Below the pieces are notes generated by a model. It was not told the origin of the DNA, made no database searches, and worked only from the letters and a program-made list of their open reading frames with translations. From assembly GCA_017621225.1 (NCBI GenBank), contig JAGATN010000046.1, positions 1-57,725 on the forward strand: DNA of 57,725 nt. Reading direction: 5' to 3'. The DNA is from Muribaculaceae bacterium. GTDB taxonomy: Bacteria; Bacteroidota; Bacteroidia; Bacteroidales; Muribaculaceae. The translations under genes and the position numbers were made by a program. Each line of letters begins with the position of its first letter. Within the stretch, counting starts at the first letter, position 1. Positions 35,035-54,315 of the stretch are shown one piece after another.

Positions 35035-35811
35035 TTAATCAAGCGTCTGGTCACCGCCACCGTTCACAAAAAGCACCTGCCCGCTCACCCATGCCGATGC
35101 CGGCGATGCGAAAAATAACACGGCTTGTGCTATGTCGGAAACCTCGCCAAGACGGTGGATGGGCGTATGGCGAAGCATCTTTTCCTGTATCTCGGGCGTC
35201 AGGATGGACGCCAACGCAGCTGTCTTTGTCGCGCCCGGGCCCACATTGTTTATCCTCACGCCGTAAGGGCCGAAGTCGTAGGCAAGGTTGGCGGCAAGAT
35301 GGTTGAGTGCAGCCTTCGACGACGAGTAGACACACATATTGGCCTCCTTGTCGATCGAACTCATGGAGGTGATGTTTATGATGCTTCCATAACCCGATTC
35401 GCCCATCTTGGGCACGGCAAGCTGGCAGAGTCGCCACGGGGCAAACACATTGATGCGATAGATACGTTCCACGTAGCTCAAATCGATTTTGAAGGGATTC
35501 TCTCGGCCGCCGCCACCTAATCCGGCGTTGTTGACGAGGATGTTGACCGTGCCATAATTCTTGACCGTAGTGTCAATGAGGTTTACCAAATCGGCATCCT
35601 CCAACACATTACAAGCCACGGCGATGGCTTTGCCGCCCGCCGCCGCTATTTCGTCGGCCACAGCCTTTGCCTTATCGGCACTTATGTCGCTTACTACAAC
35701 CGATGCCCCCGCCGAAGCAAGGATCTCGCAACATCCCTTACCTATTCCGTCGCCGCCGCCTGTCACCACAGCCACTTTTCCTGAAAGGTCAAAAAGTTCT
35801 TGAATCTGCAT
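35035..35811 (-). CDS. hdhA: 7alpha-hydroxysteroid dehydrogenase-like SDR
   Basis: A 258-residue classical SDR with TGGGDGIG (17-24), D42 after SVVVS (NAD preference), NNAG (94-97), S149 in INITSMSS, and Y162/K166 in YSSSK. It is strikingly close to what I remember of E. coli HdhA over the C-terminal third: LTPEIQEKMLRHTPIHRLGE followed by ASAWVSGQ and GGG near the end, a segment that sets HdhA apart from general SDRs. HdhA oxidises the 7alpha-hydroxyl of bile acids. The steroid specificity is an inference from this resemblance and the presumed gut habitat. It is first in a two-gene operon with another SDR. Confidence 0.75.
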   Translation of the reverse strand: MQIQELFDLSGKVAVVTGGGDGIGKGCCEILASAGASVVVSDISADKAKAVADEIAAAGGKAIAVACNVLEDADLVNLIDTTVKNYGTVNILVNNAGLGGGGRENPFKIDLSYVERIYRINVFAPWRLCQLAVPKMGESGYGSIINITSMSSIDKEANMCVYSSSKAALNHLAANLAYDFGPYGVRINNVGPGATKTAALASILTPEIQEKMLRHTPIHRLGEVSDIAQAVLFFASPASAWVSGQVLFVNGGGDQTLD

Positions 35812-35926
35812 AAGATTAAATTTTTATGTATATAGGATTACAACAAAGGTTGATAGACATGGTTCACGGTTTCGCGTCGCGAACAAGTGCGAACAAGCAT
35901 ATGGGTCGTATCTAATTTTTAGGCGT

Positions 35927-35960
35927 TTTGCCGTTTTAATTGTATATTTTAGTAACTTTG
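35927..35960 (+). promoter_or_regulatory. Promoter of the first sensor/barrel module
   Basis: TTTG (35927-35930), 22 bases, TAACTTTG (35953-35960): both elements match, with spacing slightly long. The start codon follows at 35989. Confidence 0.6.
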
Positions 35961-35988
35961 CGGCTTAAACAGGCTCTATAATAGTCTG

Positions 35989-37671
35989 ATGTTGAATATG
36001 ATTACAATAAATCAGCCATATAAAAATCCGCTTCTTTCGATACTTGCCGTTCTTATTGCGGCGAGCATAGCGGTATCGTGCTCCCATTCGCAAAAGCAAG
36101 CCCAAATTATCTCGGATGCAGAAAGAATTGCTTACGACCATCCTGACAGCGCATTGTCAATTCTCGACATCATTGAGCCATCGGAACTATCAGTTGATTC
36201 GCTGAAAGCTCAATATTATCTGCTTAAGGCTTTAATACACGATAAGCAGGGACATCTTCAGCTATCTGATTCGCTGATTGGATATTCTTCTGACTATTAC
36301 AAACATAAAGATCTGAATCGCGCCATAAAGAGTGCAACCCTTTCGGCGCTATACAATTATTGGGTCAATGGCGACAGGAATGCAATCGTTCAGCTTGATT
36401 CACTGACCAATATTAACAATCTACCCGATAGCCTGACCATATTCCCGCTAAGAAAAAGAGCTTATTGGAGCACAAAGCTTTTTGATGAGAAAGATAATCG
36501 GCCTGTCATAAAAAGATTGATTTCAATAGATAAGGATTCAGCATCGCAGCATCTATATAAATACTGGCTTTACATAGATTATCTGTTTGACGGACAGACT
36601 GATTCATCCCTTATCATACTTGATGAGCTTATTGGTCAGGCCATAAGCTCCAAGTTATCAGAGCATCAATTCAAATATGAATATGAGAAGATGGGAGCAT
36701 TGGAAGAATCAGGTCATTATGCGGAGTGTCTGGAATTGGCCGACAAATTCTTGGAAAAAGCGCCTGGCAATTCCATTAAGCATTACATCTATCTATGGAA
36801 ATCATTGGCATTGCTCAATATGGACAATAGGAATGAAGCAATCCGCGAACTGGCCAAAGCCGATAGCTGCGCCGCTTCAACTTCTGAAAACGAAAAAGGA
36901 TATTACAACAGCTTCTCCTATCTTCTAAATACCGTATTGGATTATCAGAACACAGGTAAGTTGAGGCTTATTCGCATGGCACAGATCAATAATCGTCAAA
37001 AAGACTATCTATTCCGAACGCAATCCCTACAACACGAGGCCGAACAAAGCGCATTTGAAATAGAAAACAGGCGATTGATTCTTAAAGCGAGAAACGACCG
37101 CCAAACCGCCATATTGATCATAGTAGTGCTGGCAGCCATAATCATATCAGGCTCATTATTGTGGTATGCGCTCCACAGGAAACGCAAAGCGGTGGAAGCA
37201 TTGGAACGAAATGAAGTTTTTCAAAAATTAATCGATGAGTCAAATGCCACCGCTACAAACGCCGCGCAAAGCGAGTCGCTACGCCGCGCCATGTTGCAGC
37301 AACTTGGCATCATAAAGATGGTGGCCGAAACGCCCACCGAGCAAAATAGGGATATGCTCCGAAAAATATCTTCGATCGACAGCGATACCCAAGGAGCCCT
37401 TGTCAACTGGGAAAGCGTGTATGCCATAATCGACAATCTGTATTCCGGCTTCTACACCCGACTTCACACCCGACACGGCGACATACTCACAGATAAGGAA
37501 GAACAGATCATCGTGCTTATTTCCGCCGGATTCTCCACCAAAGAAATCAGCGTAATCACGGGACAGACCACTGCGACCATATATGTACGCAAATCATCCA
37601 TTCGAAAGAAGCTCGGAGTGCCCGAAAAAGAGGACATAGTGGCTTTTCTTCGTCAGGAAGACAATGATTAA
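35989..37671 (+). CDS. Membrane-spanning lipoprotein regulator with periplasmic TPR-like domain and cytoplasmic HTH (module copy 1)
   Basis: A 560-residue protein. The N-terminus is a lipoprotein-type signal (LAVLIAASIAVSC, C31). Residues 35-330 are alpha-helical and TPR-like (DSALSILDIIEPSELSVDSL), followed by a coiled coil with the segment SLQHEAEQSAFEIENRRL, one membrane helix at about 372-395 (TAILIIVVLAAIIISGSLLW), and a C-terminal LuxR-type helix-turn-helix near 500-555 (LTDKEEQIIVLISAGFSTKE followed by IYVRKSSIRKKLG). The topology predicted is periplasmic sensor, cytoplasmic DNA-binding output, that is, a one-protein signalling system. It lies 161 bases upstream of a 699-residue outer-membrane barrel gene that is its likely target. 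A shorter paralogue with the same plan heads the second copy of the module at 43206. Confidence 0.8.
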   Translation: MLNMITINQPYKNPLLSILAVLIAASIAVSCSHSQKQAQIISDAERIAYDHPDSALSILDIIEPSELSVDSLKAQYYLLKALIHDKQGHLQLSDSLIGYSSDYYKHKDLNRAIKSATLSALYNYWVNGDRNAIVQLDSLTNINNLPDSLTIFPLRKRAYWSTKLFDEKDNRPVIKRLISIDKDSASQHLYKYWLYIDYLFDGQTDSSLIILDELIGQAISSKLSEHQFKYEYEKMGALEESGHYAECLELADKFLEKAPGNSIKHYIYLWKSLALLNMDNRNEAIRELAKADSCAASTSENEKGYYNSFSYLLNTVLDYQNTGKLRLIRMAQINNRQKDYLFRTQSLQHEAEQSAFEIENRRLILKARNDRQTAILIIVVLAAIIISGSLLWYALHRKRKAVEALERNEVFQKLIDESNATATNAAQSESLRRAMLQQLGIIKMVAETPTEQNRDMLRKISSIDSDTQGALVNWESVYAIIDNLYSGFYTRLHTRHGDILTDKEEQIIVLISAGFSTKEISVITGQTTATIYVRKSSIRKKLGVPEKEDIVAFLRQEDND

Positions 37672-37767
37672 GCCTACGTTTGGAACGTGAAGATCAATAT
37701 TAAGACTTTTAAGACGAGTCACCACTGATATTCAGCACATTACAAGCCGCTAATTAAGATTATTGTT

Positions 37768-37800
37768 TTTGGCATTAAGATCGGTTTAGCCATAATTTTG
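37768..37800 (+). promoter_or_regulatory. Promoter of barrel gene 1
   Basis: TTTG (37768-37771), 21 bases, TAATTTTG (37793-37800) is a consensus promoter 32 bases before the ATG. AGACTTTT at 37703-37710, 90 bases before the -7 box, also occurs twice upstream of barrel gene 2. Confidence 0.7.
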
Positions 37801-37832
37801 CGGTACGAAATCAATAAAATCCGTATCGCAAT

Positions 37833-39932
37833 ATGACAACGAAAAATTTAAAACAAACCATGATGGCGGCAGTCATCATCGCATCGGCCGGCACCATAAG
37901 CGCTTCGGCACAGACCGAACCAACCGACACCATATCGTCTCATGATTTAGGCGAGATTGTGATAGAAGCGCCAAAAGTAATACGCAAATCAGACATGGAT
38001 GTATATCATCCGTCGAAAAGCGCGGTCGACAACTCCAAAAACGGCATGCAGCTGCTCCGCAACCTTATGATACCGACTCTGAACGTAAATGACGCCCTCG
38101 GCTCCATCAGCGCTGCCGGACAATCGGTACAGGTGCGAATCAATGGCAGGGTTGCCACCATCGAACAGGTCAAAGCGCTCTTGCCGGAGACAATAAAGCG
38201 AGTAGAATGGATAGACAATCCCGGTCTACGATATAACGGTGCCAATTATGTGCTTAATGTCATCGTGGCAAATCCGACTCTGGGAGGCTCGCTGATGTTG
38301 CAAACCAAGCAGGCATTGAATCAGAAATGGGGTTATTACCAAGGTGATGCCAAATTTAACGTCGGACGCTCTCAGTGGAATGCGGGCGGTTATTTCAAAC
38401 TAACGGATGAAATAAAAGCTCATCGCGAGTATGAGGAGACTTTCACTTTCGCCGACGGAACCTCGCTGACAAGAAAAGAAACTCCGCGTGGCGGGGAGCT
38501 TGACAACTCGCAGGGTGCAGGATGGCTTTCATATAACTATATCAAGCCCGACACAACCATATTCTACATGTCGTTACAGGCCAATCGCAATTTTTCAGAT
38601 AAGTGGCAATATAAAGGTCTGTTAAGCCTGAGCAACGGAGAAAACGACATAGACCTTATGGATTCACGAGGCAACCTCGGAACCACTCCGTCATTTTCCA
38701 CATATCTCGAACAGCATTTCGCCCACCGTCAGACCCTTGTAGTAGATTTCAGCGCATCATTGTATTCGGGCCACTCCTATTCCGATTACGTCGAGCAATA
38801 TCCCGGCGCGACAGATCTATTAACCGACATTCATACTTACGTCAAGGATCGTAATCAGGCATACGGTCTGGAAGCGAACTACATAAAGCAATGGAGGAGT
38901 TCAAGATTTACTGCCGGAGCATCGTACACCGCAAATCGCAACCGTTCGACATACGAGAACCTCGGCGGCGAGATTTTCCACCAACGTCAGGACAAGGCTT
39001 ATTTCTTTGCCGAATATTTCCACCGCATCAACAAGGTGACCCTGACCGGAGGCATCGGCGCGCAATACACTTCATTCCTGTTCAAGGAAACGAATCAGGG
39101 AAACCATTCATGGAACACCCGACCGCAGGCCACTATCACTTATGCGCCCAATCAGAATCATCAATTCCGACTCAGCTTCACTTCGTGGCAATCAACGCCC
39201 TCGCTCGCCGAGACCAACATCGCGCCACAACAGCTTGACGGATTCCAGTGGCGAATAGGCAATCCCAATCTTAACACATCGTCATCATATATGCTGTCGT
39301 TGCGTCACAGCTACAATTTACCCCGCGTGTCAGGCTCGTTCGGAATCAAGGCATTTACGAGCCCCAATGCCATAACGCCTTATCTTTATTGGGATAACGA
39401 AAAGCTGATAACCTCATACGAAAACAGCAAGGGCTTGCAAAACATAAGTTTCTGGCTTGCTCCGCAGATAGAGGTGGTGCCGACATGGTTTGTCGTAGCC
39501 GGATTCATACAATATACGGCCGAACGAATGGAGGGCAACAACTATAAGCATTACAACCATTGCTGGAGCGGAAATGTCAGTGCCATGGTGACTCATTGGG
39601 GATTTACGCTCGGATTCCAATATGTCAGGGCGCAGCGTGATCTCTGGGGCGAAAAGATTTCATGGGGAGAGGATTTTCCCGTACTCAACCTTTCCTATAA
39701 TTGGAAAAACTGGGAATTTGGCGCCGGAGTCCTACTCCCGTTCGGAAAGTATGACCAAGGCTCTCGTTCACTGAGCAAATGGAACACCAACGAAATGCAC
39801 GCGCGGCTCGACATGCGCATGCCTTATATATCCGTAAATTACAATCTCCAATGGGGCAGGCAGAAAAGAGGCACCAATAAGCTCATCAATGCCGATTCGA
39901 GCGTCAACCAATCAACCGTTGGAGGAAGATGA
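37833..39932 (+). CDS. TonB-type outer membrane beta-barrel protein (module copy 1)
   Basis: A 699-residue exported protein. The signal peptide (AAVIIASAGTISASAQ) is followed by a plug-like domain (about 45-150: LGEIVIEAPKVIRKSDMDVY, then VQVRINGRVATIEQVKALLP, then VEWIDNPGLRYNG) and a beta-barrel of alternating aromatic strands to the C-terminus, as in the outer-membrane beta-barrel family (OMP_b-brl_3) of Bacteroidetes. It is shorter than SusC proteins and lacks the carboxypeptidase-like N-terminal extension and any SusD partner. The ligand is unknown. The neighbouring transmembrane regulator probably senses its cargo or assembly state. A second barrel of nearly the same length follows the second regulator. 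Confidence 0.85.
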   Translation: MTTKNLKQTMMAAVIIASAGTISASAQTEPTDTISSHDLGEIVIEAPKVIRKSDMDVYHPSKSAVDNSKNGMQLLRNLMIPTLNVNDALGSISAAGQSVQVRINGRVATIEQVKALLPETIKRVEWIDNPGLRYNGANYVLNVIVANPTLGGSLMLQTKQALNQKWGYYQGDAKFNVGRSQWNAGGYFKLTDEIKAHREYEETFTFADGTSLTRKETPRGGELDNSQGAGWLSYNYIKPDTTIFYMSLQANRNFSDKWQYKGLLSLSNGENDIDLMDSRGNLGTTPSFSTYLEQHFAHRQTLVVDFSASLYSGHSYSDYVEQYPGATDLLTDIHTYVKDRNQAYGLEANYIKQWRSSRFTAGASYTANRNRSTYENLGGEIFHQRQDKAYFFAEYFHRINKVTLTGGIGAQYTSFLFKETNQGNHSWNTRPQATITYAPNQNHQFRLSFTSWQSTPSLAETNIAPQQLDGFQWRIGNPNLNTSSSYMLSLRHSYNLPRVSGSFGIKAFTSPNAITPYLYWDNEKLITSYENSKGLQNISFWLAPQIEVVPTWFVVAGFIQYTAERMEGNNYKHYNHCWSGNVSAMVTHWGFTLGFQYVRAQRDLWGEKISWGEDFPVLNLSYNWKNWEFGAGVLLPFGKYDQGSRSLSKWNTNEMHARLDMRMPYISVNYNLQWGRQKRGTNKLINADSSVNQSTVGGR

Positions 39933-39962
39933 CAGAAACAGCTTAAACAACCCGAAAACGAA

Positions 39963-39989
39963 GCAACCTCGACGTGATGTCGGGGTTGC
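39963..39989 (+). terminator. Terminator hairpin of barrel gene 1
   Basis: GCAACCTCGAC (39963-39973) pairs with GTCGGGGTTGC (39979-39989), 11 pairs with one G-U. Fifteen bases of it (39974-39988) recur exactly in the hairpin after barrel gene 2. Confidence 0.7.
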
Positions 39990-40040
39990 CTGTCATATAT
40001 GCCTTAGAGGTGGGAGAATCTGCCAAACCGACCTACGTTG

Positions 40041-40937
40041 CTAACGATTATGGTTAAACGAATTGCGATACTGCAACGGAGTTTTTCCCACATGCCGTTT
40101 AAACAGCTGAGAGAAATACGAAAAGTCATCGTATCCCAAGAAAAGAGCAATGTCCTTTATCGGGCTGTCGCTCGAGGCAAGCATTAGCTGTGCCTTCATC
40201 ATCTTTTGCCTTATTATGTATTGTATCGGCGAACAGCCAACATCGCGGTTGAAAACCTTTATAAAATGATCGCGCGACATATAAGCCTCACGGGCTATAT
40301 CTTCGAGCGTAACATTGCCATACATATTCTCGCCGATGTATCTAAGCGCCTGCACGATGCGCTTATCGGCCGACGCGTATCTGGGTTTAGCCGCCGTTAC
40401 GAACCGCGACAACAGCTGATATATGATTCCCGCCGACTCCATTCGGTCGTAGAACGGACGCTCTCTGTTGAGTCTCACGCACTCTATCAGCGAAGTCTTG
40501 TTGTCGTAAATTCGGGGGTCGGAACACTTCAGCCGCATCGACTCATTATTGTCACATATGGTTTCAAACAACACGCGGTCATGCTGTGTGCCGGAGATGC
40601 TGAACGGGAAATCCAGATTGTCAATCAGGCCCGAACCATCCGTGTTATCTTCGTAGATGTGTATGTAATAATGGCTGAAGAACCCCGAACAGATATTGGT
40701 ATGCTTAACAAATGGCGGAACGATGTACATATTGCCCGGAGTAAGGCTATGCAGGCTTGAGCCTTGCATTATTTGCGCCTCTCCTCCGGTGACATAGTAT
40801 ATTCGCGTGAACGGACTGCTAACATCGCTGAAATTCCAGTCGCCGTTATGCACGGCGTGACCCACGTTCAGCATGAGCAACTGTGGCAGCCTGTCGTTAT
40901 GATCCGTTACACCTATCATATCACTTATACGTGGCAT
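40041..40937 (-). CDS. AraC family transcriptional regulator
   Basis: A 298-residue protein from ATG 40937. The N-terminal cupin-like sensing domain (about 25-140, with PFTRIYYVTGGEAQIMQG and LTPGNMYIVPPFVKHTN) is followed by the AraC double helix-turn-helix (about 195-295): VTLEDIAREAYMSRDHFIKV and IKDIALFLGYDDFSYFSQLF. It is divergent from a GH97 glycosidase across 212 bases and is the obvious candidate to control that gene in response to a sugar. An in-frame TTG at 40979 would add 14 residues. Confidence 0.88.
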   Translation of the reverse strand: MPRISDMIGVTDHNDRLPQLLMLNVGHAVHNGDWNFSDVSSPFTRIYYVTGGEAQIMQGSSLHSLTPGNMYIVPPFVKHTNICSGFFSHYYIHIYEDNTDGSGLIDNLDFPFSISGTQHDRVLFETICDNNESMRLKCSDPRIYDNKTSLIECVRLNRERPFYDRMESAGIIYQLLSRFVTAAKPRYASADKRIVQALRYIGENMYGNVTLEDIAREAYMSRDHFIKVFNRDVGCSPIQYIIRQKMMKAQLMLASSDSPIKDIALFLGYDDFSYFSQLFKRHVGKTPLQYRNSFNHNR

Positions 40938-41081
40938 CTGCTTGGCAAAGATTGCAAAGAGCCGATATCCGTAGTGCAAAATAAAGCGAAAAAAGAATCT
41001 GAAACAAATATCTGTCCAAACAATGTCGATTTTATCCTATTAAAACACGAAATTCTCATATCACGATAATTTGCTTTCCAA

Positions 41082-41089
41082 TAACTTTG
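41082..41089 (+). promoter_or_regulatory. -7 box for the GH97 gene
   Basis: TAACTTTG matches TAnnTTTG, 60 bases before the ATG. There is no TTTG at -33, in keeping with a promoter that needs an activator such as the divergent AraC protein. Confidence 0.5.
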
Positions 41090-41149
41090 CATATTGTATC
41101 AACTCGTTTTTACATATTTGTAATCCGATAAAAACTTCATCACAATAAA

Positions 41150-42946
41150 ATGCGATACAATACCTTTAACTGCAAACGGTTTCTTGCTATGCTTGTAGCG
41201 ACCGCCATCGCTACAATGGCGCTATATTCTCAGACATCACCAAATGGGAAAATAGCGGTAAAAGCAGCCGGAAAGAATGGATTTGCCATATACCACAATT
41301 CCAATGAATCGAAACCTACGAAACTGGCCGTCATTGAGTGTGGCAACATTAAGAAAACCGTGGCCGGCGGTACACATACCACCGAATATGATATGCTGAC
41401 AGGTAAACGAAGCCACTGCACAAACGCCTACTCCGAAGCTATGTATGTGTTGGCCGATGGCGACACGCTGACGGTAAGAGCCTGGAACGACGGCGTTGCA
41501 TGGCGGGGAACGCACGATAGCCGCATAAATCTTTCAGGAGCCACCCACAACTGGCTTGCGGAATGGAGCGACGGCTACGAAGCTTTCTTTCCCGCCGACC
41601 GCAACGTGACGGAGGGCAACCGCTTCTGCTACCCCGCGCTCTTTGAATTCAGTTCTGAAAAAAATACGCCCATATTCCTTCTTCTCTCCGAATCGGGAAT
41701 CGACCGTAACTACGCGGCATCAAGCCTACACGCCACGGCAACACCCGGCACATTCGCACTGAAGCCCGACGGCCCGGAGATGCCCGGATGGCAGACTGCC
41801 ATAATCGGGAGCCTCGCGGAGATAGTTGAGTCGACGCTAATAGCCGACAATTCGGCCCCGTCACAAATCAAAGACACCTCATGGATTCATCCCGGAGTGG
41901 CATCGTGGGTATATTGGGCCTACAACCACGGCTCTGAAAACTATGACATCGTGTGCAAATACATCGACTTGGCGGCTACGCTCAAGCTCCCTTATGTGTT
42001 TATCGATGCCGACTGGGATAAGATGGGAAACGGCAAAAACATACTCGATGCCGTGGGTTATGCCAAAGAGAAAGGCATCAAACCAATGATATGGTACAAT
42101 TCGTCAGTTGGTTGGATTGATGGCGCACCCGGACCGAAATTTCGCCTCAACAAGCCGGAAGATAGGGAACGTGAGTTTGCCTGGTGTGAGCAAAACGGCA
42201 TAGTCGGCGTGAAAGTCGATTTCTTCTCAGGCGATACCAACCTAAACATACGGTATATGGCTGAACTCCTCGAATGCGCGGCACGACACAATCTACTTGT
42301 AAATTTTCATGGAGCCACGATTCCACGAGGATGGCATCGCACTTACCCCAACCTTATGAGCGTTGAAGGAGTTTATGGCGCGGAATGGTACAACAACGTT
42401 CCAACATTTACCGACAAAGCGGCGCGTCACAACGCCACGCTTCCATTCACTCGCAACGTCATCGGACCGATGGACTATACCCCTTGCGCATTCTCCGATT
42501 CGCAGCATCCGCACATCACCACCCACGCGCATGAGCTTGCATTGACGGTGCTGTACGAATCAGGAATACAACATCTTGCCGACCGTCCGGAAAGCTTTCT
42601 TGCCCAGCCTGAATACATACGTAATTTCCTCACCCAATTGCCTAATGCGTGGGACGACACGAAACTTATCGGTGGCTACCCCGGCGATTATGCAGTAATA
42701 GCACGCCGTAAGGGCAACAACTGGTGGATTGCCGGAATAAACGGGAATGATACCGTTCGCGAAATTCCTCTCGACTTCAATAAAACAGGAATCACCAATG
42801 ACTACAATAACAAGAAAATAACCCTCATCGCTGACTATTCCAAAGGCAAAGATTCAAAATGGGAGATACGGACAATTAAAGACTTGCCTCAAATCATCAG
42901 ATTGCAGCCTCGTGGAGGATTTATCATCACTATTCAAGAATTATGA
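41150..42946 (+). CDS. Glycoside hydrolase family 97 (alpha-glucosidase or alpha-galactosidase)
   Basis: A 598-residue exported enzyme with a signal peptide (FLAMLVATAIATMALYSQ). The N-terminal beta-sandwich (about 30-260; FAIYHNSNESKPTKLAVIEC) precedes the TIM barrel with WVYWAYNHGSENYDIVCKYI, IDADWDK, GVKVDFFSGD (D357) and VEGVYGAEW (E406, E412), and a C-terminal sandwich follows. The Asp in VKVDF and the Glu residues are the candidate catalytic groups. GH97 includes both inverting alpha-glucosidases such as SusB and retaining alpha-galactosidases; the sequence alone does not let me choose with confidence. At about 600 residues it is shorter than SusB. The divergent AraC gene probably regulates it. 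Confidence 0.88.
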   Translation: MRYNTFNCKRFLAMLVATAIATMALYSQTSPNGKIAVKAAGKNGFAIYHNSNESKPTKLAVIECGNIKKTVAGGTHTTEYDMLTGKRSHCTNAYSEAMYVLADGDTLTVRAWNDGVAWRGTHDSRINLSGATHNWLAEWSDGYEAFFPADRNVTEGNRFCYPALFEFSSEKNTPIFLLLSESGIDRNYAASSLHATATPGTFALKPDGPEMPGWQTAIIGSLAEIVESTLIADNSAPSQIKDTSWIHPGVASWVYWAYNHGSENYDIVCKYIDLAATLKLPYVFIDADWDKMGNGKNILDAVGYAKEKGIKPMIWYNSSVGWIDGAPGPKFRLNKPEDREREFAWCEQNGIVGVKVDFFSGDTNLNIRYMAELLECAARHNLLVNFHGATIPRGWHRTYPNLMSVEGVYGAEWYNNVPTFTDKAARHNATLPFTRNVIGPMDYTPCAFSDSQHPHITTHAHELALTVLYESGIQHLADRPESFLAQPEYIRNFLTQLPNAWDDTKLIGGYPGDYAVIARRKGNNWWIAGINGNDTVREIPLDFNKTGITNDYNNKKITLIADYSKGKDSKWEIRTIKDLPQIIRLQPRGGFIITIQEL

Positions 42947-43044
42947 AATGACCATAACACACCTGAAATTCACACGTTGCTAACATTTTGTTCTTTTTCA
43001 AGATTTCAGGAATAGATTAAGTTTTAAAGGTCAGTTGATTACGC

Positions 43045-43086
43045 AGCGCATCCCAAAAGCCGTGCACACAGCTTTTGGAATGCGCT
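43045..43086 (+). terminator. Terminator hairpin of the GH97 gene
   Basis: AGCGCATCCCAAAAGC (43045-43060) pairs with GCTTTTGGAATGCGCT (43071-43086), 15 of 16 positions, around a 10-base loop, about 100 bases after the stop. Confidence 0.7.
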
Positions 43087-43152
43087 TTAAGTGAACAACG
43101 CCTATATTTCAGGAAACAGGCAAAATAAAGATACTATGTGAGATTTTTGTTG

Positions 43153-43160
43153 TATTTTTG
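43153..43160 (+). promoter_or_regulatory. -7 box for regulator 2
   Basis: TATTTTTG matches TAnnTTTG, 45 bases before ATG 43206; no TTTG at the expected -33 distance. Confidence 0.45.
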
Positions 43161-43205
43161 CATTTAAACATACCGTTCCATAACCGTCTGTTTAGTTGTC
43201 GCATT

Positions 43206-44192
43206 ATGAGATGTTTGCTCTACATAATTTTGCTGCTTGTTGTCACCGGTTGTTCTTATTCAAGTTCCACCTCCACAAATGAGCTTGATGAGGCCGAGCG
43301 AATATTACAATCCGACCCGACAGCAGCACTCGAAAAGCTCAATGGCTTTGACGTAACGGAATTTCAGGATTCAGCGTCAATGGCCCGTTGGGCACTACTA
43401 TACTCGGAAGCTTTGGTGGCTAACCGCCTAACAGCGCCCACCGATACCATAGTGAATATAGCCATCGATTATTATGCCGGCCACAATTTGAAAGAAAAAT
43501 CACAACACGCTTCAAGACTGAAAGCATTGATGCGGTCCTCAGGCAGCGAGGATGCTCTTGCCTCGGCGCTATACCTCCAAAAGGAGAAAGAGTTTCTTTT
43601 GTATAAGGAACGCGCCAAACGCGAATTATACACATTGATTAGCGTAATCATTTTGCTATTGGCCATTGGAATCATACTATGGATGCGCCAACGCATGAAA
43701 CTGCAATCAGCTCGAAATGATGCAATAATTGCAGAGGCTTCGGGTTTGAAATGCCAGATAGATGAGGCTCGTGGTAATGTAGACAGATTAGAGACAAAGC
43801 TACACGGATTGCTTGAAAACCGTTTCACGCTCATTGACTCGCTTTGTCAAACATATTACGAGACCCGTGGCACCAAGACCGAGCGAAAGGCCATTATCGA
43901 CAAAGTGAAAGCCGAAATAGAATCGGTGCGCACCGACTCCTTTTCAGAGATGGAAAAAGCCGTCAATGATTGCCGCGACAACATCCTTGTAAAAATCAAA
44001 GAGAGCAATCCCGGCATCAAGTCTGACGACTATATGCTTTTGGTATTTATTGCAAGCGGACTTTCGACGCGCACTATAAGCCTGCTTCTCGGCGAATCCG
44101 TGGATGTGATATATAAACGCAAATCAAGGTTGAAATCACGACTTAAAGAGTCAACCGAGGCCATAAATGCCGATGTCATGGCCATTTTCTGA
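43206..44192 (+). CDS. Membrane-spanning lipoprotein regulator with cytoplasmic HTH (module copy 2)
   Basis: A 328-residue protein from ATG 43206. It has a lipoprotein signal (LLLVVTGC, C16), a short helical periplasmic part (about 25-130: NELDEAERILQSDPTAALEK), one membrane helix near 140-160 (LYTLISVIILLLAIGIILWM), a coiled coil (about 165-235) and a C-terminal helix-turn-helix near 270-320 (IKSDDYMLLVFIASGLSTRT, then VIYKRKSRLKSRLKES). The plan matches the regulator at 35989, but the periplasmic TPR region is roughly 200 residues shorter. It lies 140 bases before a second TonB-type barrel gene. An in-frame TTG at 43158 is an unlikely start since it overlaps the -7 box. Confidence 0.78.
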   Translation: MRCLLYIILLLVVTGCSYSSSTSTNELDEAERILQSDPTAALEKLNGFDVTEFQDSASMARWALLYSEALVANRLTAPTDTIVNIAIDYYAGHNLKEKSQHASRLKALMRSSGSEDALASALYLQKEKEFLLYKERAKRELYTLISVIILLLAIGIILWMRQRMKLQSARNDAIIAEASGLKCQIDEARGNVDRLETKLHGLLENRFTLIDSLCQTYYETRGTKTERKAIIDKVKAEIESVRTDSFSEMEKAVNDCRDNILVKIKESNPGIKSDDYMLLVFIASGLSTRTISLLLGESVDVIYKRKSRLKSRLKESTEAINADVMAIF

Positions 44193-44208
44193 TTCGCGTT
44201 TGCACTCG

Positions 44209-44282
44209 GTCAGACTTTTCTGCAATATACGGACATACACTCCTTAATATCAGTATATTACAACTCCCGATGTCAGACTTTT
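44209..44282 (+). promoter_or_regulatory. Two 11-bp direct repeats GTCAGACTTTT, candidate operator of barrel gene 2
   Basis: GTCAGACTTTT occurs at 44209-44219 and 44272-44282, 63 bases apart, close to six helical turns, and the second copy ends just before the -33 element. The core AGACTTTT also occurs upstream of barrel gene 1 (37703-37710). The upstream regulator, whose output is a helix-turn-helix domain, is the likely ligand. Confidence 0.5.
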
Positions 44283-44283
44283 A

Positions 44284-44317
44284 TTTGGGAGTTTAGGAGC
44301 TTTTGTGAGTAATTTTG
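44284..44317 (+). promoter_or_regulatory. Promoter of barrel gene 2
   Basis: TTTG (44284-44287), 22 bases, TAATTTTG (44310-44317). The start codon ATG 44333 follows 15 bases later, giving a very short leader. Confidence 0.65.
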
Positions 44318-44332
44318 CAAAAAATCACTCAT

Positions 44333-46414
44333 ATGAAAGCAAAAATACTTTTATCAATCATTTCCGTTTTTCTCATCGCTGAAAGCGGTGTTGCGCAAAA
44401 CCAAGAGACAACCGACAGCCTCGCGCGCGAACTTCAGGAGATCGTAGTCACCACAAAGCAACCGGCCACAAAACTTGTCGGCTCAACGCTGGTGTCAACC
44501 ATACCGGGATCTAATCTTGCCGACCTCGGCAACGCTCTCGATGTATTGGCTCAACTCCCTATGATAAAGGTGCAGGACAATGCCGTAAGCGTCATCGGCA
44601 AGAGCAATATCGAAATATTCATAGATGGTCGACCGATGCGCGACTCTCAGGAGTTACAGCAGTTGCTTTCCTCAAATATGAAGAAAGTTGAACTGCTCAT
44701 GGCTCCAGGTGCCGCTTACGCAAGCACAACGGGGGCGGTGCTAAAAATCTCCACTCGACGTAATTTCGTTCAAGGTCTTTCCTTTACCGACCGGGGACAG
44801 ATTCAGCGCCGACGCAAATGGTCGGTGATGGATGACCTCGGGCTGAGTTATATGGTCGGCAATTGGGAGATATTTGTTAATGGCACCATAAATCGCAATA
44901 ATTCGCTGATCAAAGGATGCACCACGAACGCGCTCGTATATGATGGCAAGGAAACCATTGTCGGAAGCTGTCAAAACAATTCGTTTCCTACGACAACAGG
45001 CATCGTAAAAGCGGGATTCAACTATTCTCAGAGAGCGCAATCGTTTGGCGCTTATTACCGATATAATCCTGAACGCGGCGAGTTCAACAACACAGGTAGT
45101 GAATGGCTGAACGAGAATCCCGCAATAAGCCGCGAGATCGACAAGCACATACGGGCACACAGCCACCTTGCATCTCTTTATTACGAAAACAGATTTGCCG
45201 AAAACTATCTTCTCCACTTTGACGGCGATTATCGTCATTCAAACGAGCATAATAATGTTGCGACTACTTATCCCGAATCGAGCAATCAGGCGGTCAGCTC
45301 GACAGATAAACGAGCCTCAACCCTTTGGGCCGGAAAGCTGTATCTCAATCTTCCCCTTTGGAGTGGAGATTTAACCGTTGGAACACAGGATAGCCACACG
45401 CATACCACCCTCGATTACCGTATGCTTAACGCCGCAGTCAGCGAATACATACCTTCATCATTGACCGATGCACGACAGACGTCAGCAGCCCTGCTCGCTT
45501 CCTGGTCACGTCTGTTTGATAAGTTTTCACTCTCGGCAGGGGCAAGATACGAATATGTCGATTATGACTTCAAAGTAGATGGCAAGCGTGACGAAGAGGT
45601 CAGCCGTCGCGACCATCTGCTTACGCCCGATTTATCGCTCGGCTATTCATTTAACGACGACTCACAAATAAGCCTCAGTTACAAAATGGCTACCGTCAAG
45701 CCTCCGTATTCCCAGCTTACAGGCTCACTTAGCTATACGGGGTTGCACGAAATCGAAGGAGGCAATCCGAGGTTACGCGACGAGAAGATGCACGACATCC
45801 GACTGTTCGGAATGTTGAAAGAATTCATGCTTCAGGCCGATTACACCCGTTCGCTCGACACATACGCCTTTGTCAAGCAGCTATATCCCGCCAATAATCT
45901 TCAGTTGCTTATGCACCCTGTCAATGTCGACGTTTCGGCATTAAACCTCTATCTCGTCTGGAGCCGGCCCATACATCGGTGGGCTCCTAACGCTACCATT
46001 GGCATGTACCGACAATGGCTCGTTCTTGATGGCACAAGTTACAACAAACCGCTTTTCTCATATTATTTTGATAATGCGTTCTCTCTCCCTCGCGGATGGA
46101 TGATTACAGCAAATATTAGCGGCAGTTCGCAAGGTGACATGCACACCAACCGCTTCGGTGCCTCCTGGTTTACCATAGACGCATCAGTTGGCAAAACTTT
46201 ACTTGACAAGGCATTGACCGTCAAACTCTCGGCAACCGACATATTCAACACCGCAAACAACGATTGGACGATGAACACATACGGAATACTTACGACTAAA
46301 AAGCAAAGCTATGACCGCAGGGGCATAACTCTAAGCTTACAGTATCAATTCCAACCCAAGAAAAGCAAATACAAAGGCACGACGGCCTCAGAAGCCGAAA
46401 TGAACCGACTATAA
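44333..46414 (+). CDS. TonB-type outer membrane beta-barrel protein (module copy 2)
   Basis: A 693-residue exported protein from ATG 44333; a TTG at 44315 lies inside the -7 box and is rejected. Signal peptide ILLSIISVFLIAESGVAQ, then a plug domain (about 30-140: LQEIVVTTKQPATKLVGSTL, NIEIFIDGRPMRDSQELQQL, VELLMAPGAAYASTTGAVLK) and a barrel ending in alternating strands (GITLSLQYQFQP). The plug motifs EIVI/EIVV, DGR/NGR and VEWIDNPG/VELLMAPG line up with those of the barrel at 37833, so the two are paralogues. No SusD or TonB-box extension beyond the usual is seen. Cargo unknown. Confidence 0.85.
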   Translation: MKAKILLSIISVFLIAESGVAQNQETTDSLARELQEIVVTTKQPATKLVGSTLVSTIPGSNLADLGNALDVLAQLPMIKVQDNAVSVIGKSNIEIFIDGRPMRDSQELQQLLSSNMKKVELLMAPGAAYASTTGAVLKISTRRNFVQGLSFTDRGQIQRRRKWSVMDDLGLSYMVGNWEIFVNGTINRNNSLIKGCTTNALVYDGKETIVGSCQNNSFPTTTGIVKAGFNYSQRAQSFGAYYRYNPERGEFNNTGSEWLNENPAISREIDKHIRAHSHLASLYYENRFAENYLLHFDGDYRHSNEHNNVATTYPESSNQAVSSTDKRASTLWAGKLYLNLPLWSGDLTVGTQDSHTHTTLDYRMLNAAVSEYIPSSLTDARQTSAALLASWSRLFDKFSLSAGARYEYVDYDFKVDGKRDEEVSRRDHLLTPDLSLGYSFNDDSQISLSYKMATVKPPYSQLTGSLSYTGLHEIEGGNPRLRDEKMHDIRLFGMLKEFMLQADYTRSLDTYAFVKQLYPANNLQLLMHPVNVDVSALNLYLVWSRPIHRWAPNATIGMYRQWLVLDGTSYNKPLFSYYFDNAFSLPRGWMITANISGSSQGDMHTNRFGASWFTIDASVGKTLLDKALTVKLSATDIFNTANNDWTMNTYGILTTKKQSYDRRGITLSLQYQFQPKKSKYKGTTASEAEMNRL

Positions 46415-46452
46415 CAAGAAACAGCTCAATCATACACAGACAAATACCACGT

Positions 46453-46478
46453 CAACCTCGGCAGTGATGTCGGGGTTG
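46453..46478 (+). terminator. Terminator hairpin of barrel gene 2
   Basis: CAACCTCG (46453-46460) pairs with CGGGGTTG (46471-46478), including one G-U. The segment 46464-46478 is identical to 39974-39988 after barrel gene 1, showing that the terminator was copied with the module. Confidence 0.65.
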
Positions 46479-46488
46479 TCAAGTATTT

Positions 46489-47070
46489 TCACCGGGTCAG
46501 TCGGATGCTGCTTTCATCAAACAGAGGAAGCTCCTGACCTATCTCTACATATAACGCCTTGTCGGGACAAGAGGAGAACACTTCAAAATATCTCATTCCA
46601 CTGTTACCTATACCCCATCCGCTACAAGTTGACGTTACAGGGCCGTCAAGCATGATGCGATTAATACTGTCGGCATATTCTCCGTCAGGAACCAGCACAT
46701 AGCGTCGCCGATCCTTCCATTCCGAGTCGACTTCCATTAAACGACACGACTGAGAGTCATCCCATCCGGGCTATCGCTTAAACTCAGCCATAAGATCTGT
46801 AATGTGACCGTGTTCGAGAGGGAACACCATCAATAGGGTGTCAAGCCTGTTGCCCATTGAATCTACCAGAACGGCTCCGGGCATACAGGTGTCAATCTCC
46901 ACGTGTAGCTGCGAACTTCTCTGAGCCATAAAGTCAAGCCCTGCGCCCGACACGCGTTCCCATCGAAAGCCCTCATATGGGGCCCTGCGCGGACTTGTAG
47001 AGCAACCGGCAATAATCATCACAGCCAACAATCCTGCAACCAATCTAATTCTATGCGTGAAAGCAACCAT
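46489..47070 (-). pseudogene. Lipoprotein gene interrupted by an amber codon
   Basis: From ATG 47070 a 99-residue lipoprotein is read (signal LVAGLLAVMIIAGC, C23) until TAG at 46773-46771. The same frame then continues without another stop to 46489 with a further 93 codons (PGWDDSQSCRLMEVDSEWKD on). If the TAG were CAG (Gln), a single 193-residue lipoprotein would result. A Met at 46737 could restart translation of the tail. The family is unknown; the second half has a cysteine pair (CSGWG, SSCPD). It is a recent nonsense mutation or a sequencing error. Confidence 0.7.
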
Positions 47071-47174: not shown

Positions 47175-47618
47175 CTACTTATTGTCTATGGCATGGATGA
47201 TTTCGAGTTTGAGGTCTTCGGGATAATCCTCGTTTGCCATGTAGCAAGTAATGATGCGCCGGAGTAGGTCTTTGTCGATGCGGCCGGCAGCTACATGGTA
47301 GATGATTGCTTCCATGCACTGCATGAAATTGTAGGCGTGCCAATAGAAACCGTTATGAACGAGGAACCATACTCCGATGGTCAAGGCTACCCATTTGTTG
47401 GAATCCTCGAAATAATGTCCGGTGCATAAGCCGAATACCAGATAGGTCAGTTTCTCTACGAATGTCGGATAGTACAGGTCGTCTTGCACGAAGTCAAGCA
47501 CCTTTCGTATGCCACCTTCGTCTTTCACGCCCTGAAAACCGCCACCACTTACAACAATCGTCTTGCGATAGACCTCTAAAGCTCCATCGTAGTCGATATA
47601 TTTCAGCATCTCACTCAT
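47175..47618 (-). CDS. Doc/Fic-type death-on-curing toxin with a variant motif
   Basis: A 147-residue protein of the death-on-curing branch of the Fic fold. The motif HYFEDSNKWVAL (H68, F70, D72, N74, K75) corresponds to HxFxDANKRTA of P1 Doc, with the Arg replaced by W76. Doc kinases phosphorylate EF-Tu. Upstream GFQGVKDEGGIRKVLDF resembles the family's flap region with G-x-R. Helices follow to the C-terminus. It overlaps the preceding gene by 8 bases and so is translated with it. The substitution at the motif's Arg, which normally contacts phosphate, may weaken activity. Confidence 0.8.
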   Translation of the reverse strand: MSEMLKYIDYDGALEVYRKTIVVSGGGFQGVKDEGGIRKVLDFVQDDLYYPTFVEKLTYLVFGLCTGHYFEDSNKWVALTIGVWFLVHNGFYWHAYNFMQCMEAIIYHVAAGRIDKDLLRRIITCYMANEDYPEDLKLEIIHAIDNK

Positions 47619-48180
47619 CTTCGGCTTGCTTTAGGCGTTTGAGGACTTCACGGTTGGCTTCAAGGATATTATCAAAGTCGATTGAAGCATCGCCTATATT
47701 TATTGCAGTAGGAAGATAGTCGCGGTCTCGCCAGTTGATATACTTAGTCCCACCACCGGCTCTTTTGTTGATGGTAGATATAACAATATCAAGAATCCGA
47801 GCGCGAACTTGCTTTGCTTTTTCACTTTCAGTCAACAGCATACCGACATTGAGCACGGCACGGAAATTGAATAAGCCAAGTTGTGTGGTTTTGCTCCCGA
47901 CATTGATGACGGGAGCAAATTGTAACTTAAATTCCTTCAGCTGTTTACCTTTACTTAAAACATAGCCGTTGTACTTCAGCTCGTCACCGTAGTCTTCCAA
48001 AAGACGCTCTATAGTGCGTTCTTCGACTTCATAAAAGTCCGCTACCATTTTCTTGGTAAATCGGTATTCTCCTTCAAAAAGCATTCCGGTAAATCCAAGA
48101 TTCTCTTGAAGGGCATCCACTGCATAACGATTGTTCAATACGTTTTGCCGCTCTACATTTGATATTGTCAAGTCGTTCAT
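47611..48180 (-). CDS. Putative DNA-binding antitoxin/partner of the Doc protein
   Basis: A 189-residue protein. The N-terminal region (about 35-75) FTKKMVADFYEVEERTIERL looks like a helix-turn-helix; the C-terminal part, including GLFNFRAVLNVGMLLTESEK and RARILDIVISTINKRAGGGT, resembles RhuM/virulence-type DNA-binding proteins that accompany Fic/Doc genes in Bacteroidetes. It is much larger than the classical Phd antitoxin and lacks the Phd fold, so it may neutralise the toxin differently or be only a regulator. It is coupled to the toxin by an 8-base overlap. The -7 box is four bases from its ATG. Confidence 0.65.
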   Translation of the reverse strand: MNDLTISNVERQNVLNNRYAVDALQENLGFTGMLFEGEYRFTKKMVADFYEVEERTIERLLEDYGDELKYNGYVLSKGKQLKEFKLQFAPVINVGSKTTQLGLFNFRAVLNVGMLLTESEKAKQVRARILDIVISTINKRAGGGTKYINWRDRDYLPTAINIGDASIDFDNILEANREVLKRLKQAEDE

Positions 48181-51008: not shown

Positions 51009-51021
51009 TGATTGGGTTTCG

Positions 51022-51029
51022 CAAAATTA
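51022..51029 (-). promoter_or_regulatory. -7 box of the HTCS gene
   Basis: On the minus strand TAATTTTG (51029-51022), 13 bases before ATG 51008, a short leader; no -33 element recognised. Confidence 0.5.
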
Positions 51030-51052
51030 AAGATAATCTTATGAAAAATAAT

Positions 51053-51101
51053 GCATAAGGTATCAAAAATTGAGCAATGCAACATATTTGATATACTATG
51101 C
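51053..51101. promoter_or_regulatory. 49-bp two-part dyad, candidate HTCS operator
   Basis: GCATA-AGG-TATCAAA (51053-51067) mirrors TTTGATA-TAC-TATGC (51087-51101): 12 of 15 positions complementary, centred at 51077. It lies between the HTCS -7 box and the GH32 -7 box (51136-51143), a fitting place for activation of the sugar genes and feedback on the sensor gene. Confidence 0.6.
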
Positions 51102-51135
51102 ACGATTTTTTATTTATGTTCCGTAATCATTATTG

Positions 51136-51143
51136 TAGTTTTG
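51136..51143 (+). promoter_or_regulatory. -7 box of the GH32 operon
   Basis: TAGTTTTG matches TAnnTTTG. The -33 region has no TTTG, as expected for an activator-dependent promoter. The leader to ATG 51259 is long, about 110 bases. Confidence 0.55.
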
Positions 51144-51258
51144 CAATGTCAAAACCGACAGATTAAAATGTAGAGTGCATATTGGTGTAAGTTTTAAGGT
51201 AAAAAAGATTGTTTACAAATTCCAAAATTTCAAATGAGTATAAAAATTTAAATCTAAT

Positions 51259-53097: not shown

Positions 53098-53107
53098 TCA
53101 TACCGTC

Positions 53108-54286
53108 ATGGCACAGTCACTTGTATACAACCGCAAATCGTTCCTGCTCCAGATAATCCCCGTAATGTTATGCTTCTTCGTAATGGGATTTGTCGATCTC
53201 GTGGGAACCGCATCAAACTACGTTCAAAAAGACTTGGGTCTTTCCGACTCCCAGGCCAATCTATTTCCGTCGCTGGTTTTCTTCTGGTTTCTAATATTCT
53301 CGGTACCCACCGGAATGCTTATGAACAGAATAGGACGCAAAAAGACCGTCCTTATCAGCTTGATTGTTACCGCAGCATCGCTGTTCATCCCTGCCTTCGG
53401 CGACAGCTACGGCGTGATGCTCGTATCGTTCTCGCTGCTCGGCATAGGCAATGCAATCATGCAGACTTCACTGAATCCGTTGGTTACCAACCTTATCAGC
53501 GGCGACAAACTTGCCTCCACACTTACATTCGGTCAGTTTGTAAAGGCCATCGCCTCGTTCCTCGCCCCGGTGATAGCCGCGTGGGGCGCCACTACCCTCT
53601 TTCCCACATTTGGCCTTGGCTGGAGAGCCCTGTTTATAATCTACGCCATCATCAGTTTCCTCTCCATCTCATTGTTGGCGGCCACGCCGATAGATGAGGA
53701 GAAGCCCGATAAGGCATCGGGAATGGGTGAATGTCTCAAACTGCTCGGACGTCCGTTCATCTTCTTATGTTTCCTCGGCATCATGTGCCATGTGGGAATA
53801 GATGTCGGTACCAACACCACCGCACCGAAAATTATAATGGAACGTCTCGGCCTCCCATTGGAAGAAGCCGGATTTGCCACAGGCGTTTATTTCATTTTCC
53901 GCACGATAGGCTGCTTTTTGGGAGCTTTCATTCTGCGCATGATGTCGCCCAAACTTTTCTTTGCCATAAGCGTCATTATGATGCTCGCCGGCATGGGCAT
54001 ACTCTACGCTTGCGACACGCTAACCCCGCTTTATGCCGGAATAGGGCTCATCGGGTTCGGCAACTCCAATATTTTCTCGGTTGTGTTCTCTCAGGCCCTT
54101 CTTTACACCCCCAACGAGCGTAATGAAGTGTCAGGACTAATGATCATGGGGCTCTTTGGCGGCACGGTGTTCCCCCTGGCAATGGGCTATGCCGCCGATG
54201 CAATGGGTCAGGTCGGGGCTGTCTCCGTAATGACAATAGGAGTCGTTTATCTCCTATACTACACATTGAAAATCAGAAAAATATAA
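53108..54286 (+). CDS. MFS sugar transporter (fructose, FucP/BT1758-like)
   Basis: A 392-residue major facilitator with 12 membrane helices. The N-terminus PVMLCFFVMGFVDLVGTASN is characteristic of the sugar MFS group found in Bacteroidetes fructan loci (BT1758 type), and MNRIGRKKTVLISL is the loop 2-3 motif. It should bring fructose, and perhaps sucrose, across the inner membrane for the kinase encoded next. No substrate can be proven from sequence. It stands 10 bases after GH32. Confidence 0.88.
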   Translation: MAQSLVYNRKSFLLQIIPVMLCFFVMGFVDLVGTASNYVQKDLGLSDSQANLFPSLVFFWFLIFSVPTGMLMNRIGRKKTVLISLIVTAASLFIPAFGDSYGVMLVSFSLLGIGNAIMQTSLNPLVTNLISGDKLASTLTFGQFVKAIASFLAPVIAAWGATTLFPTFGLGWRALFIIYAIISFLSISLLAATPIDEEKPDKASGMGECLKLLGRPFIFLCFLGIMCHVGIDVGTNTTAPKIIMERLGLPLEEAGFATGVYFIFRTIGCFLGAFILRMMSPKLFFAISVIMMLAGMGILYACDTLTPLYAGIGLIGFGNSNIFSVVFSQALLYTPNERNEVSGLMIMGLFGGTVFPLAMGYAADAMGQVGAVSVMTIGVVYLLYYTLKIRKI

Positions 54287-54315
54287 TTAGTTAACAAAAT
54301 CTTACCAAAATCGAC

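Follow-up and report, generated by a model that had tools for sequence, protein, structure and literature searches.

Paired regulators and TonB-type barrels in a Muribaculaceae contig as candidate one-receptor regulons

Introduction

What does a regulator gene do for an outer-membrane barrel gene when it stands directly before it, twice in the same contig? The question is raised by contig JAGATN010000046.1 of a Muribaculaceae bacterium (GCA_017621225.1), whose 57,725 nucleotides are referred to here as the window. Two regulator-barrel units, unit 1 (reg1 and bar1) and unit 2 (reg2 and bar2), lie on its plus strand, with an AraC-family gene (minus strand) and a GH97 glycoside hydrolase gene (plus strand) between them (Table 1). 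A first-pass annotation, made from the sequence alone, regarded each as a self-contained trans-envelope signalling unit, in which a one-protein membrane regulator controls, or listens to, one barrel. All four open reading frames (ORFs) were found where it had placed them, and its remark that neither unit contains a gene for SusD, a sigma factor or an anti-sigma factor agrees with the ORF list and a Pfam scan of the window.

The comparisons described below point, with a probability of about 0.77, to each unit being a one-receptor regulon, in which a membrane-anchored one-component regulator would bind a class-specific operator and set the transcription of the next barrel gene. Control of one barrel by its regulator, the first of the two options in the earlier annotation, appears well supported by adjacency, correlated partner distances and a single-target operator in the gap, and best so for class I, the class of reg2; reg1 is of class II.

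Conserved adjacency of regulator and barrel

Three profiles were used to survey 149 genomes of the same family, namely the barrel profile A3 built from seven barrels, the class I profile A4 from 17 seeds and the class II profile A5 from 13 seeds. The barrel profile matched 105 of the 149 genomes at E ≤ 1e-60; the A3 places listed reach ~5e-76, and their tail contains longer transporters. Class I regulators were found in 35 places at E ≤ 1e-58, the next match (1e-38) being partial, and an A3 barrel came next on the same strand in 33 of the 35, with a small ORF intervening in two. As all 17 seeds were picked beside barrels, the fair figure is that of the non-seed places, 16 of 18. The exceptions are a regulator at a contig end (G019) and one followed by a different transporter-like gene (G022:C25). 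A collection of 79 named class I loci, which overlaps in species with the 149 genomes and is not an independent sample, includes 75 with 700 bp or more of downstream sequence, and 71 of these have a barrel within 1.5 kb. In the remaining four, the barrel lies behind three inserted ORFs (L245), a different transporter follows (L282), BlaI/BlaR-like genes precede a transporter-like ORF (L275, named by eye), or there is no barrel (L259). Carriers of class I include Duncaniella muris, Muribaculum caecicola, Heminiphilus faecis and many Muribaculaceae metagenome-assembled genomes.

Class II regulators occupy 33 places at E ≤ 3.1e-208, and 15 of these precede an A3 barrel among the matches listed; they are the top 15, 13 of them seeds. 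Ten further class II-like places score from 1e-94 to 1e-84, five of which (G132, G082, G046, G023 and G066) lie beside, and mostly divergent from, transporters in the tail of the barrel list. Conserved adjacency in other genomes, which the first-pass annotation proposed as a check, is therefore strong for the unit-2 type and partial for the unit-1 type. It had also proposed to compare the trees of the partners, and the distances do correlate in both classes, with a Mantel r of 0.83 for 64 class I pairs and 0.53 for 13 class II pairs, neither corrected for shared species descent.

The system looks largely restricted to the family, since an order-level survey of 295 genomes gave class I in three, all of the same family, and the barrel profile at E ≤ 1e-110 in five, of which two were weak matches from other families. 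A class I locus of Xylanibacter caecicola (L260) is an exception to this restriction. The pairing of regulator and barrel was not found as a described system in searches of open-licence PubMed Central (PMC) papers.

In total, four regulator-barrel pairs are present in the 2.53-Mb source genome, two in the window and two elsewhere. Contig C28 carries the genes of a regulator (348 aa), a small secreted-type protein (128 aa) and a barrel (700 aa); the pair on contig C38 consists of a regulator of 470 aa and a barrel of 694 aa. With bar1 and the two barrels outside the window showing 16-26% identity to bar2, the window units are old paralogues. Their tandem placement around the AraC and GH97 genes looks incidental, because two relatives with both regulator classes beside barrels (G090 and G013) carry them on different contigs; the AraC/GH97 neighbourhood itself was not searched for in relatives. 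Small secreted-type proteins that are alike by eye were seen beside barrels at L021:4938-5324 (128 aa) and L075:2222-2548 (108 aa).

Operators in the gap between regulator and barrel

The predicted class I operator comprises GTCAGAnTTTT twice, 63 bp apart, with the nearer site abutting the -33 element and lying 38 bp before the -7 box; this box reads TAATTTTG in the window, which we take to match the Bacteroides-type promoter consensus. All 73 pairs compared, of which 72 are from named loci and one is from the window, contain GTCAG; in 68 the site is placed exactly 38 bp ahead of TAnnTTTG, and the first-to-last spacing is 63 bp in 60 of the 67 pairs with more than one copy. In shuffled gaps, GTCAG fell 25-50 bp before the -7 box at a rate of 0.0012. 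The consensus of 66 class I gaps reads gGTCAGA.TTTT ... GTCAGAct.ttaTTTTGG ... GTAAtTTTGC. When the 149 whole genomes were searched, the exact pattern GTCAG-N58-GTCAG-N33-TAnnTTTG was matched once in each of 24 genomes, against no match for the reversed pattern, and all 24 matches fall in the gap that separates a class I regulator from its barrel. The proximal site matches the source genome exactly once, before bar2, and nowhere at one or two mismatches; three matches at three mismatches, against eight for the reversed control, are not promoter-like. Since the exact operator is confined to this gap, the class I regulon would consist of one gene as far as the operator shows.

The class II operator is formed by T[TA]AGA half-sites, which are 21 bp apart in 13 of 13 loci and flank the -33 TTTG, the nearer one lying 17 bp before the -7 box in 11. 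Its pattern matched four places in the source genome against five for the control, and only the bar1 match is promoter-like.

Exchange of regulators before related barrels

The upstream gene, if it lay within ~1 kb, was assigned to a class for 82 barrels by means of profiles built from the same loci. Eighty places were fetched from the barrel list (60 top-ranked and 20 lower), leaving out those already collected and G134, which has an internal stop; the barrel tree leaves out the frame-broken L061 and seven rows below 300 bits (L180-L186), five with a divergent class II-like regulator. Transporters of ~770-800 aa with a divergently transcribed class II-like regulator were observed at L180, L181, L182, L184 and L186.

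Regulators of six classes, four of them membrane-bound and the other two soluble, were found before related barrels: class I in 18 (L021 weakly), II in 13, III in 5, IV in 5, V in 7 and VI in 6. The rest have a LytS/LytTR pair (1), an extracytoplasmic function (ECF) sigma gene (1; ~1 kb upstream at L149), an HTH_34 protein (2) or no regulator (23), and one at a contig edge (L154) was not scorable; the LytS/LytTR, ECF and HTH_34 labels were set by hand. Class III regulators possess tetratricopeptide repeats (TPR, by Pfam), a transmembrane segment (TM) and a helix-turn-helix (HTH), and their operator is an inverted repeat with GACAAA-GCGTGAC, the half-site starts being 25 bp apart in 5/5. Class IV features two TMs and a C-terminal winged helix (Trans_reg_C at 26.1 bits, under the cut-off of 26.2), with GTCAG at 59, 49 and 38 bp before the -7 box (L062, L108, L109, L112, L125 and L329; L112 without the copy at 49). 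Class V as a rule has no TM and scores 48.2 bits for GerE, and its operator is TACCC-TTTGGGTATGGC. Class VI regulators, as a rule 187 aa long, have no predicted TM and are Crp-like by eye; their operator is CAACATTTGTTGA.

Regulator class matched operator type in 50 of 54 loci, as compared with a mean of 11.0 and a maximum of 23 in 10,000 permutations, a count made on the very loci from which the operator patterns were derived and which share descent. No operator was discordant, the misses being L021, L112, L133 and L071; the last carries operator V before its true start, and the count used the stretch from an upstream start. Among 20 held-out loci (two with <200 bp upstream), six could be classed, and the matching operator was present in four and a wrong one in none (II 2/2, IV 1/1, VI 1/3); the other 14 were without operator.

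The barrel tree places these changes between close relatives. In the unit-2 barrel clade the regulators are of class I, except for five barrels with class IV that form a nested group (support 91/85) and a single barrel with LytTR, and forcing the class I barrels into one clade was rejected (approximately unbiased test, p 1e-6), the group having been chosen after the first tree was seen. The unit-4 clade has class III in 5/5, and the unit-1 clade combines several kinds (II, V, VI, ECF, none). In a quick tree, bar1, with regulator and operator of class II, groups with L071 and L107, which have regulator and operator of class V (Shimodaira-Hasegawa-like approximate likelihood ratio test, 100), so that regulator and operator differ jointly between these sister barrels. 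The regulator-plus-operator half thus appears replaceable in front of the same kind of barrel, and the description of the units as self-contained has to be corrected in this respect. As a separate observation, the genome of L126, a locus with a LytS/LytTR pair upstream, has a class I paralogue (L195) before another transporter, and the gap downstream of that paralogue is without GTCAG.

Evidence against local control

Several observations weigh against the one-receptor regulon. Among the matches listed, 18 of the 33 close class II places have no A3 barrel next; in the one inspected, L212, the regulator is followed by a 140-aa lipoprotein-like protein and a 769-aa different transporter. No regulator was recognised within ~1 kb upstream of 23 of the 81 scorable barrels. 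The third pair of the source genome itself (L021) is weakly class I, at 76.8 bits, and carries none of the six operators. Besides the shared derivation of the concordance count mentioned above, class VI is loose, as its one in three held-out loci illustrates, and operator VI precedes 6 of the 23 regulator-less barrels as well as the ECF one, a hint at control in trans. There may have been more than one entry of class IV, or the class may predate the nested group, because L329 has a class IV regulator before a unit-2-type barrel that is nearest to class I members and 64.7% identical to bar2. Operator I is kept at L126 in spite of the LytS/LytTR pair upstream, and class IV loci retain GTCAG at 38 bp, a place identical to the class I site. 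Because this site survives the change from class I to class IV, GTCAG could be partly intrinsic to the promoter in the unit-2 barrel clade.

The same persistence of GTCAG, where class IV or a LytTR pair replaces class I, would be expected if a global factor bound the operator and vertical inheritance of neighbours explained adjacency and distances, and both partners are indeed mostly inherited together. Against this stand the exact double operator, which occurs in this single gap in 24 of 149 genomes and at no other site, and the operator type, which changes with the regulator class between sister barrels. A global factor with passively inherited neighbours is accordingly regarded as highly improbable, and local control by the adjacent regulator is preferred.

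Architecture of regulators and barrels

Hydropathy gave two hydrophobic stretches in each of reg1 and reg2, corresponding to an N-terminal signal and one TM. In reg1, a signal with Cys is followed by a periplasmic helical region, a TM at ~373-391, a coiled coil and a C-terminal HTH of the LuxR/GerE type (PF00196, 31.4 bits versus a cut-off of 23.5, E 1.5e-7). By sequence, the class II HTH matches PDB entries 7ve4 and 2rnj (E 1.7e-4 and 1.8e-4). The HTH of reg2 and its homologue L066 remained under Pfam detection, the GerE cut-off not being reached; its assignment rests on an AlphaFold model and on an alignment to reg1 over 36 residues (39% identity, E 3e-5). The reg2 model (mean predicted local distance difference test, pLDDT, 82; predicted TM-score, pTM, 0.43) shows helices at 23-111, an unbroken helix of ~100 residues at 117-219 across the TM, and the HTH region at ~224-316. 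No match was obtained with this model in Foldseek at E ≤ 0.001, nor with the class I profile against PDB sequences at E ≤ 1. Of the features in the first-pass annotation, the single TM is borne out by hydropathy for both regulators, the HTH of reg1 by Pfam, and the helical domain and HTH of reg2 by the AlphaFold model. The lipoprotein signal that it read in both is likewise supported, because the Cys after the signal is invariant in 17/17 unit-2-type and 13/13 unit-1-type regulators, the lipobox being VTGC in reg2 and a weak AVSC in reg1.

The barrel bar2 belongs to PF14905 above the cut-off, and its AlphaFold model (pLDDT 77, pTM 0.73) has a plug inside a barrel and a disordered N-terminus, residues 13-49 having a pLDDT below 50 and no fold. 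In Foldseek, 236 PDB matches were obtained at E ≤ 0.001, the top ones being Cir, PhuR and BtuB (top five, E 9.8e-22 to 7.7e-20), with 10-17% identity over the 50 listed. According to Pfam and the unfolded N-terminus, no STN or other signalling domain precedes the bar2 plug, and bar2 is predicted to be a TonB-dependent-transporter fold without signalling domain. The plug/barrel of ~700 residues described earlier is thus predicted as a fold for bar2, and bar1 matches PF14905 at 74.8 bits in a whole-genome search, the Pfam scan of the window having given bar1 no family. The segments EIVVTT and EVVVTA after the barrel signal presumably represent a TonB-box-like segment. The barrel profile had no match among PDB sequences at E ≤ 0.001, and no bar2 relatives were found on viral contigs.

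These architectures bear on the second option of the first-pass annotation, that the regulator listens to the barrel. Cell-surface signalling of this style, in which the plug or ligand state of the barrel would be read by the periplasmic domain of the regulator, agrees with the periplasmic helical domain, the continuous TM helix and the tight pairing of class I with its barrel. It is very unlikely nonetheless, as the plug of bar2 has no preceding domain, related barrels are served by classes V and VI without predicted TM (soluble LuxR-type and Crp-like) or by a LytS/LytTR pair, and class IV, whose membrane part differs, stands before closely related barrels. Since soluble regulators or a LytS/LytTR pair can serve related barrels, contact between regulator and barrel would not be obligatory, and the replacement of membrane regulators by soluble ones suggests that the barrel is the output and not the input.

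Proposed mechanism

For the one-receptor regulon, the periplasmic domain would sense a cue, and the continuous helix, running on into a cytoplasmic coiled coil, would relay the change to the HTH part at the inner face of the membrane. Dimers may then occupy the two sites, which lie on the same face of the DNA (63 bp corresponding to six helical turns), possibly as a loop, and once bound would influence RNA polymerase at the promoter of the barrel gene. The output would be the barrel, a putative TonB-dependent transporter of ~700 aa. Activation is favoured over repression by about three to two, and the class II half-sites straddling -33 would fit repression as well.

A wider scheme would be modular control, in which one barrel family is served by at least six interchangeable regulator classes with their own fixed-geometry operators, membrane factors bridge sites spaced by 63 bp and the regulon is a single gene; we give it roughly even odds. 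If it holds, class IV at the GTCAG site 38 bp before the -7 box would be a natural take-over of an operator by a different DNA-binding fold, the winged helix.

The hairpin behind the barrels

The hairpin with 15 identical bases reported after both barrels was recovered: the 15-mer GTGATGTCGGGGTTG occurs at 39974-39988 and 46464-46478, and the third of its three copies in the source genome is beside a barrel too. A relaxed hairpin pattern gave four copies in this genome, each after a paired barrel, and the reversed pattern none. Each paired barrel has a common 3' element composed of the stop codon, a AAACAGCTTAATCATAC-like stretch and the hairpin, and the four hairpins are far more alike than the four barrels. 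Their stability z ranges from -3.2 to -6.3, and all four are without a clean T run; in several relatives the stem is followed by GCCTGTCTTT, with flanking A/T runs. The stretch 35800-46700 had no Rfam match at E ≤ 1.

Searched with a covariance model built from the four hairpins, the 149 genomes yielded 37 matches at E ≤ 0.01, spread over 23 of them. Among the 34 inspected, an A3-type barrel lies upstream in 21 and, as scored by script, in none of the other 13, one of which (L065) has a barrel-like ORF 202 bp upstream. Other matches follow different genes, lie between convergent genes or stand beside relaxase-like or integrase-like genes. In the 79 fetched barrel loci, a match at E ≤ 5 was present in 14, mostly right after the barrel stop. 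An element exclusive to the module, as 4/4 copies in the source genome might have indicated, was ruled out by the 13 of 34 matches in relatives without a barrel.

The simplest reading is that of a predicted family-typical bidirectional terminator, because the stem in relatives has flanking A/T runs. That the hairpin serves the module as a specific regulatory RNA or as a recognition element is unlikely. The position of the four own copies, each after a paired barrel, a conservation higher than that of the barrels and the conserved stretch 5' of the stem speak for it; the 13 matches without an A3-type barrel, the copies between convergent genes or beside relaxase-like genes, the low share of barrel loci with a match even at E up to 5, and a stem with A/T runs that fits a terminator speak against it. 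As a separate observation by eye, the hairpin at L061, L064, L065, L067, L068, L070 and L072 is only 18-35 bp away from where a convergent gene ends, next to relaxase/mobilisation-like ORFs.

Mobilisable elements may carry some of the barrels. That the units as such are cargo of these elements, with mobility explaining the mixing of regulators, seems decidedly unlikely: several relatives do have relaxase/mobilisation-like or integrase-like genes next to the hairpin or to related barrels (ORFs named by eye), but no such genes were noticed near the window units, though no search was aimed at them, and the distances of the class I partners agree well with one another.

Features of the window

The features are collected in Table 1. 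The longest ORF of reg2 opens at TTG 43158, upstream of the ATG at 43206. Beyond the units, the stretch 48267-55194 looks like a fructan cluster, with a Peripla_BP_4 hybrid two-component regulator (Pfam) beside a GH32-like enzyme and transporter/kinase-like ORFs, all genes but the regulator being named by eye. At 47175-48180, on the minus strand, two overlapping ORFs of Doc/Fic type and RhuM type (by eye) possibly form a toxin-antitoxin-like pair.

Table 1. Coordinates and basis of the features discussed (window positions unless a locus is given)
Feature	Position	Strand	Basis
reg1, class II regulator, 560 aa	35989..37671	+	ORF call, GerE 1.5e-7, hydropathy, 13-sequence comparison
Class II operator (predicted), T[TA]AGA half-sites 21 bp apart around -33 TTTG	37755..37780	+	Motif comparison
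-7 box TAATTTTG, bar1 promoter	37793..37800	+	Motif comparison
bar1, 699 aa, TonB-dependent-transporter-like	37833..39932	+	ORF call, PF14905 74.8 bits in genome search
Terminator-like hairpin, common to three other barrels	39963..39989	+	Pattern and covariance searches
AraC-family regulator, judged outside units	40041..40979	-	Pfam scan
GH97 glycoside hydrolase, judged outside units	41150..42946	+	Pfam and NCBIfam scans
reg2, class I regulator, 328 aa from ATG, lipobox VTGC	43206..44192	+	ORF call, 17-sequence comparison, AlphaFold
Class I operator/promoter (predicted), GTCAG at 44209 and 44272, TAATTTTG at 44310	44209..44317	+	Motif comparison
bar2, 693 aa from ATG, PF14905, TonB-dependent-transporter fold (predicted)	44333..46414	+	Pfam, AlphaFold, Foldseek
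Terminator-like hairpin	46453..46478	+	Pattern and covariance searches
Conserved 3' element copies	39932-39992; 46414-46482; L021:2755-2815; L015:6388-6453		Pattern comparison

Significance and comparison with known systems

The units offer a directly testable pairing of regulator and operator for uncharacterised, largely family-specific receptors of Muribaculaceae-type gut bacteria, whose inducers could be sought by reading the promoter and not the receptor. They also provide a candidate membrane-bound transcription factor with a one-gene regulon, which would be replaced along with its binding site in evolution.

SusR-type regulators combine an N-terminal membrane or periplasmic part with a C-terminal HTH and control an outer-membrane uptake gene. 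The units likewise place a one-component membrane regulator with an HTH before an outer-membrane gene, but reg2 matches the SusR model (NF058541) over ~40 residues only (14.0 bits, E 0.021, the cut-off of 480 not reached), and reg1 was not among the matches listed for this model. They differ from SusR loci in having no SusD or glycan enzyme, in their single-target operator and in the 328-aa length of reg2; the missing SusD beside the barrel also sets them apart from SusCD systems and polysaccharide utilization loci. The N-terminal part of reg2 matches positions 6-96 of the BT3442 family profile (NF053779; 38.4 bits, E 6.4e-10), far off the cut-off of 940. BT_3442 has been described as a TPR protein whose gene cluster also contains genes for MACPF and porin-like proteins (PMC2954219); the window units encode a TonB-type barrel instead of the MACPF proteins of that cluster as described there.

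The class II HTH is like that of LuxR/GerE response regulators of the VraR type, from which the class II regulators differ by their membrane anchor and by the lack of a detectable receiver domain. With Cir, PhuR and BtuB, bar2 shares the plug and the large beta-barrel, differing from them as a PF14905 subfamily of low identity. In FecA/FecR/FecI cell-surface signalling, an outer-membrane TonB-dependent transporter has a dedicated local regulator. The units likewise pair an outer-membrane transporter with a local regulator, which here, without an STN domain on the barrel or a sigma/anti-sigma pair, is a single protein.

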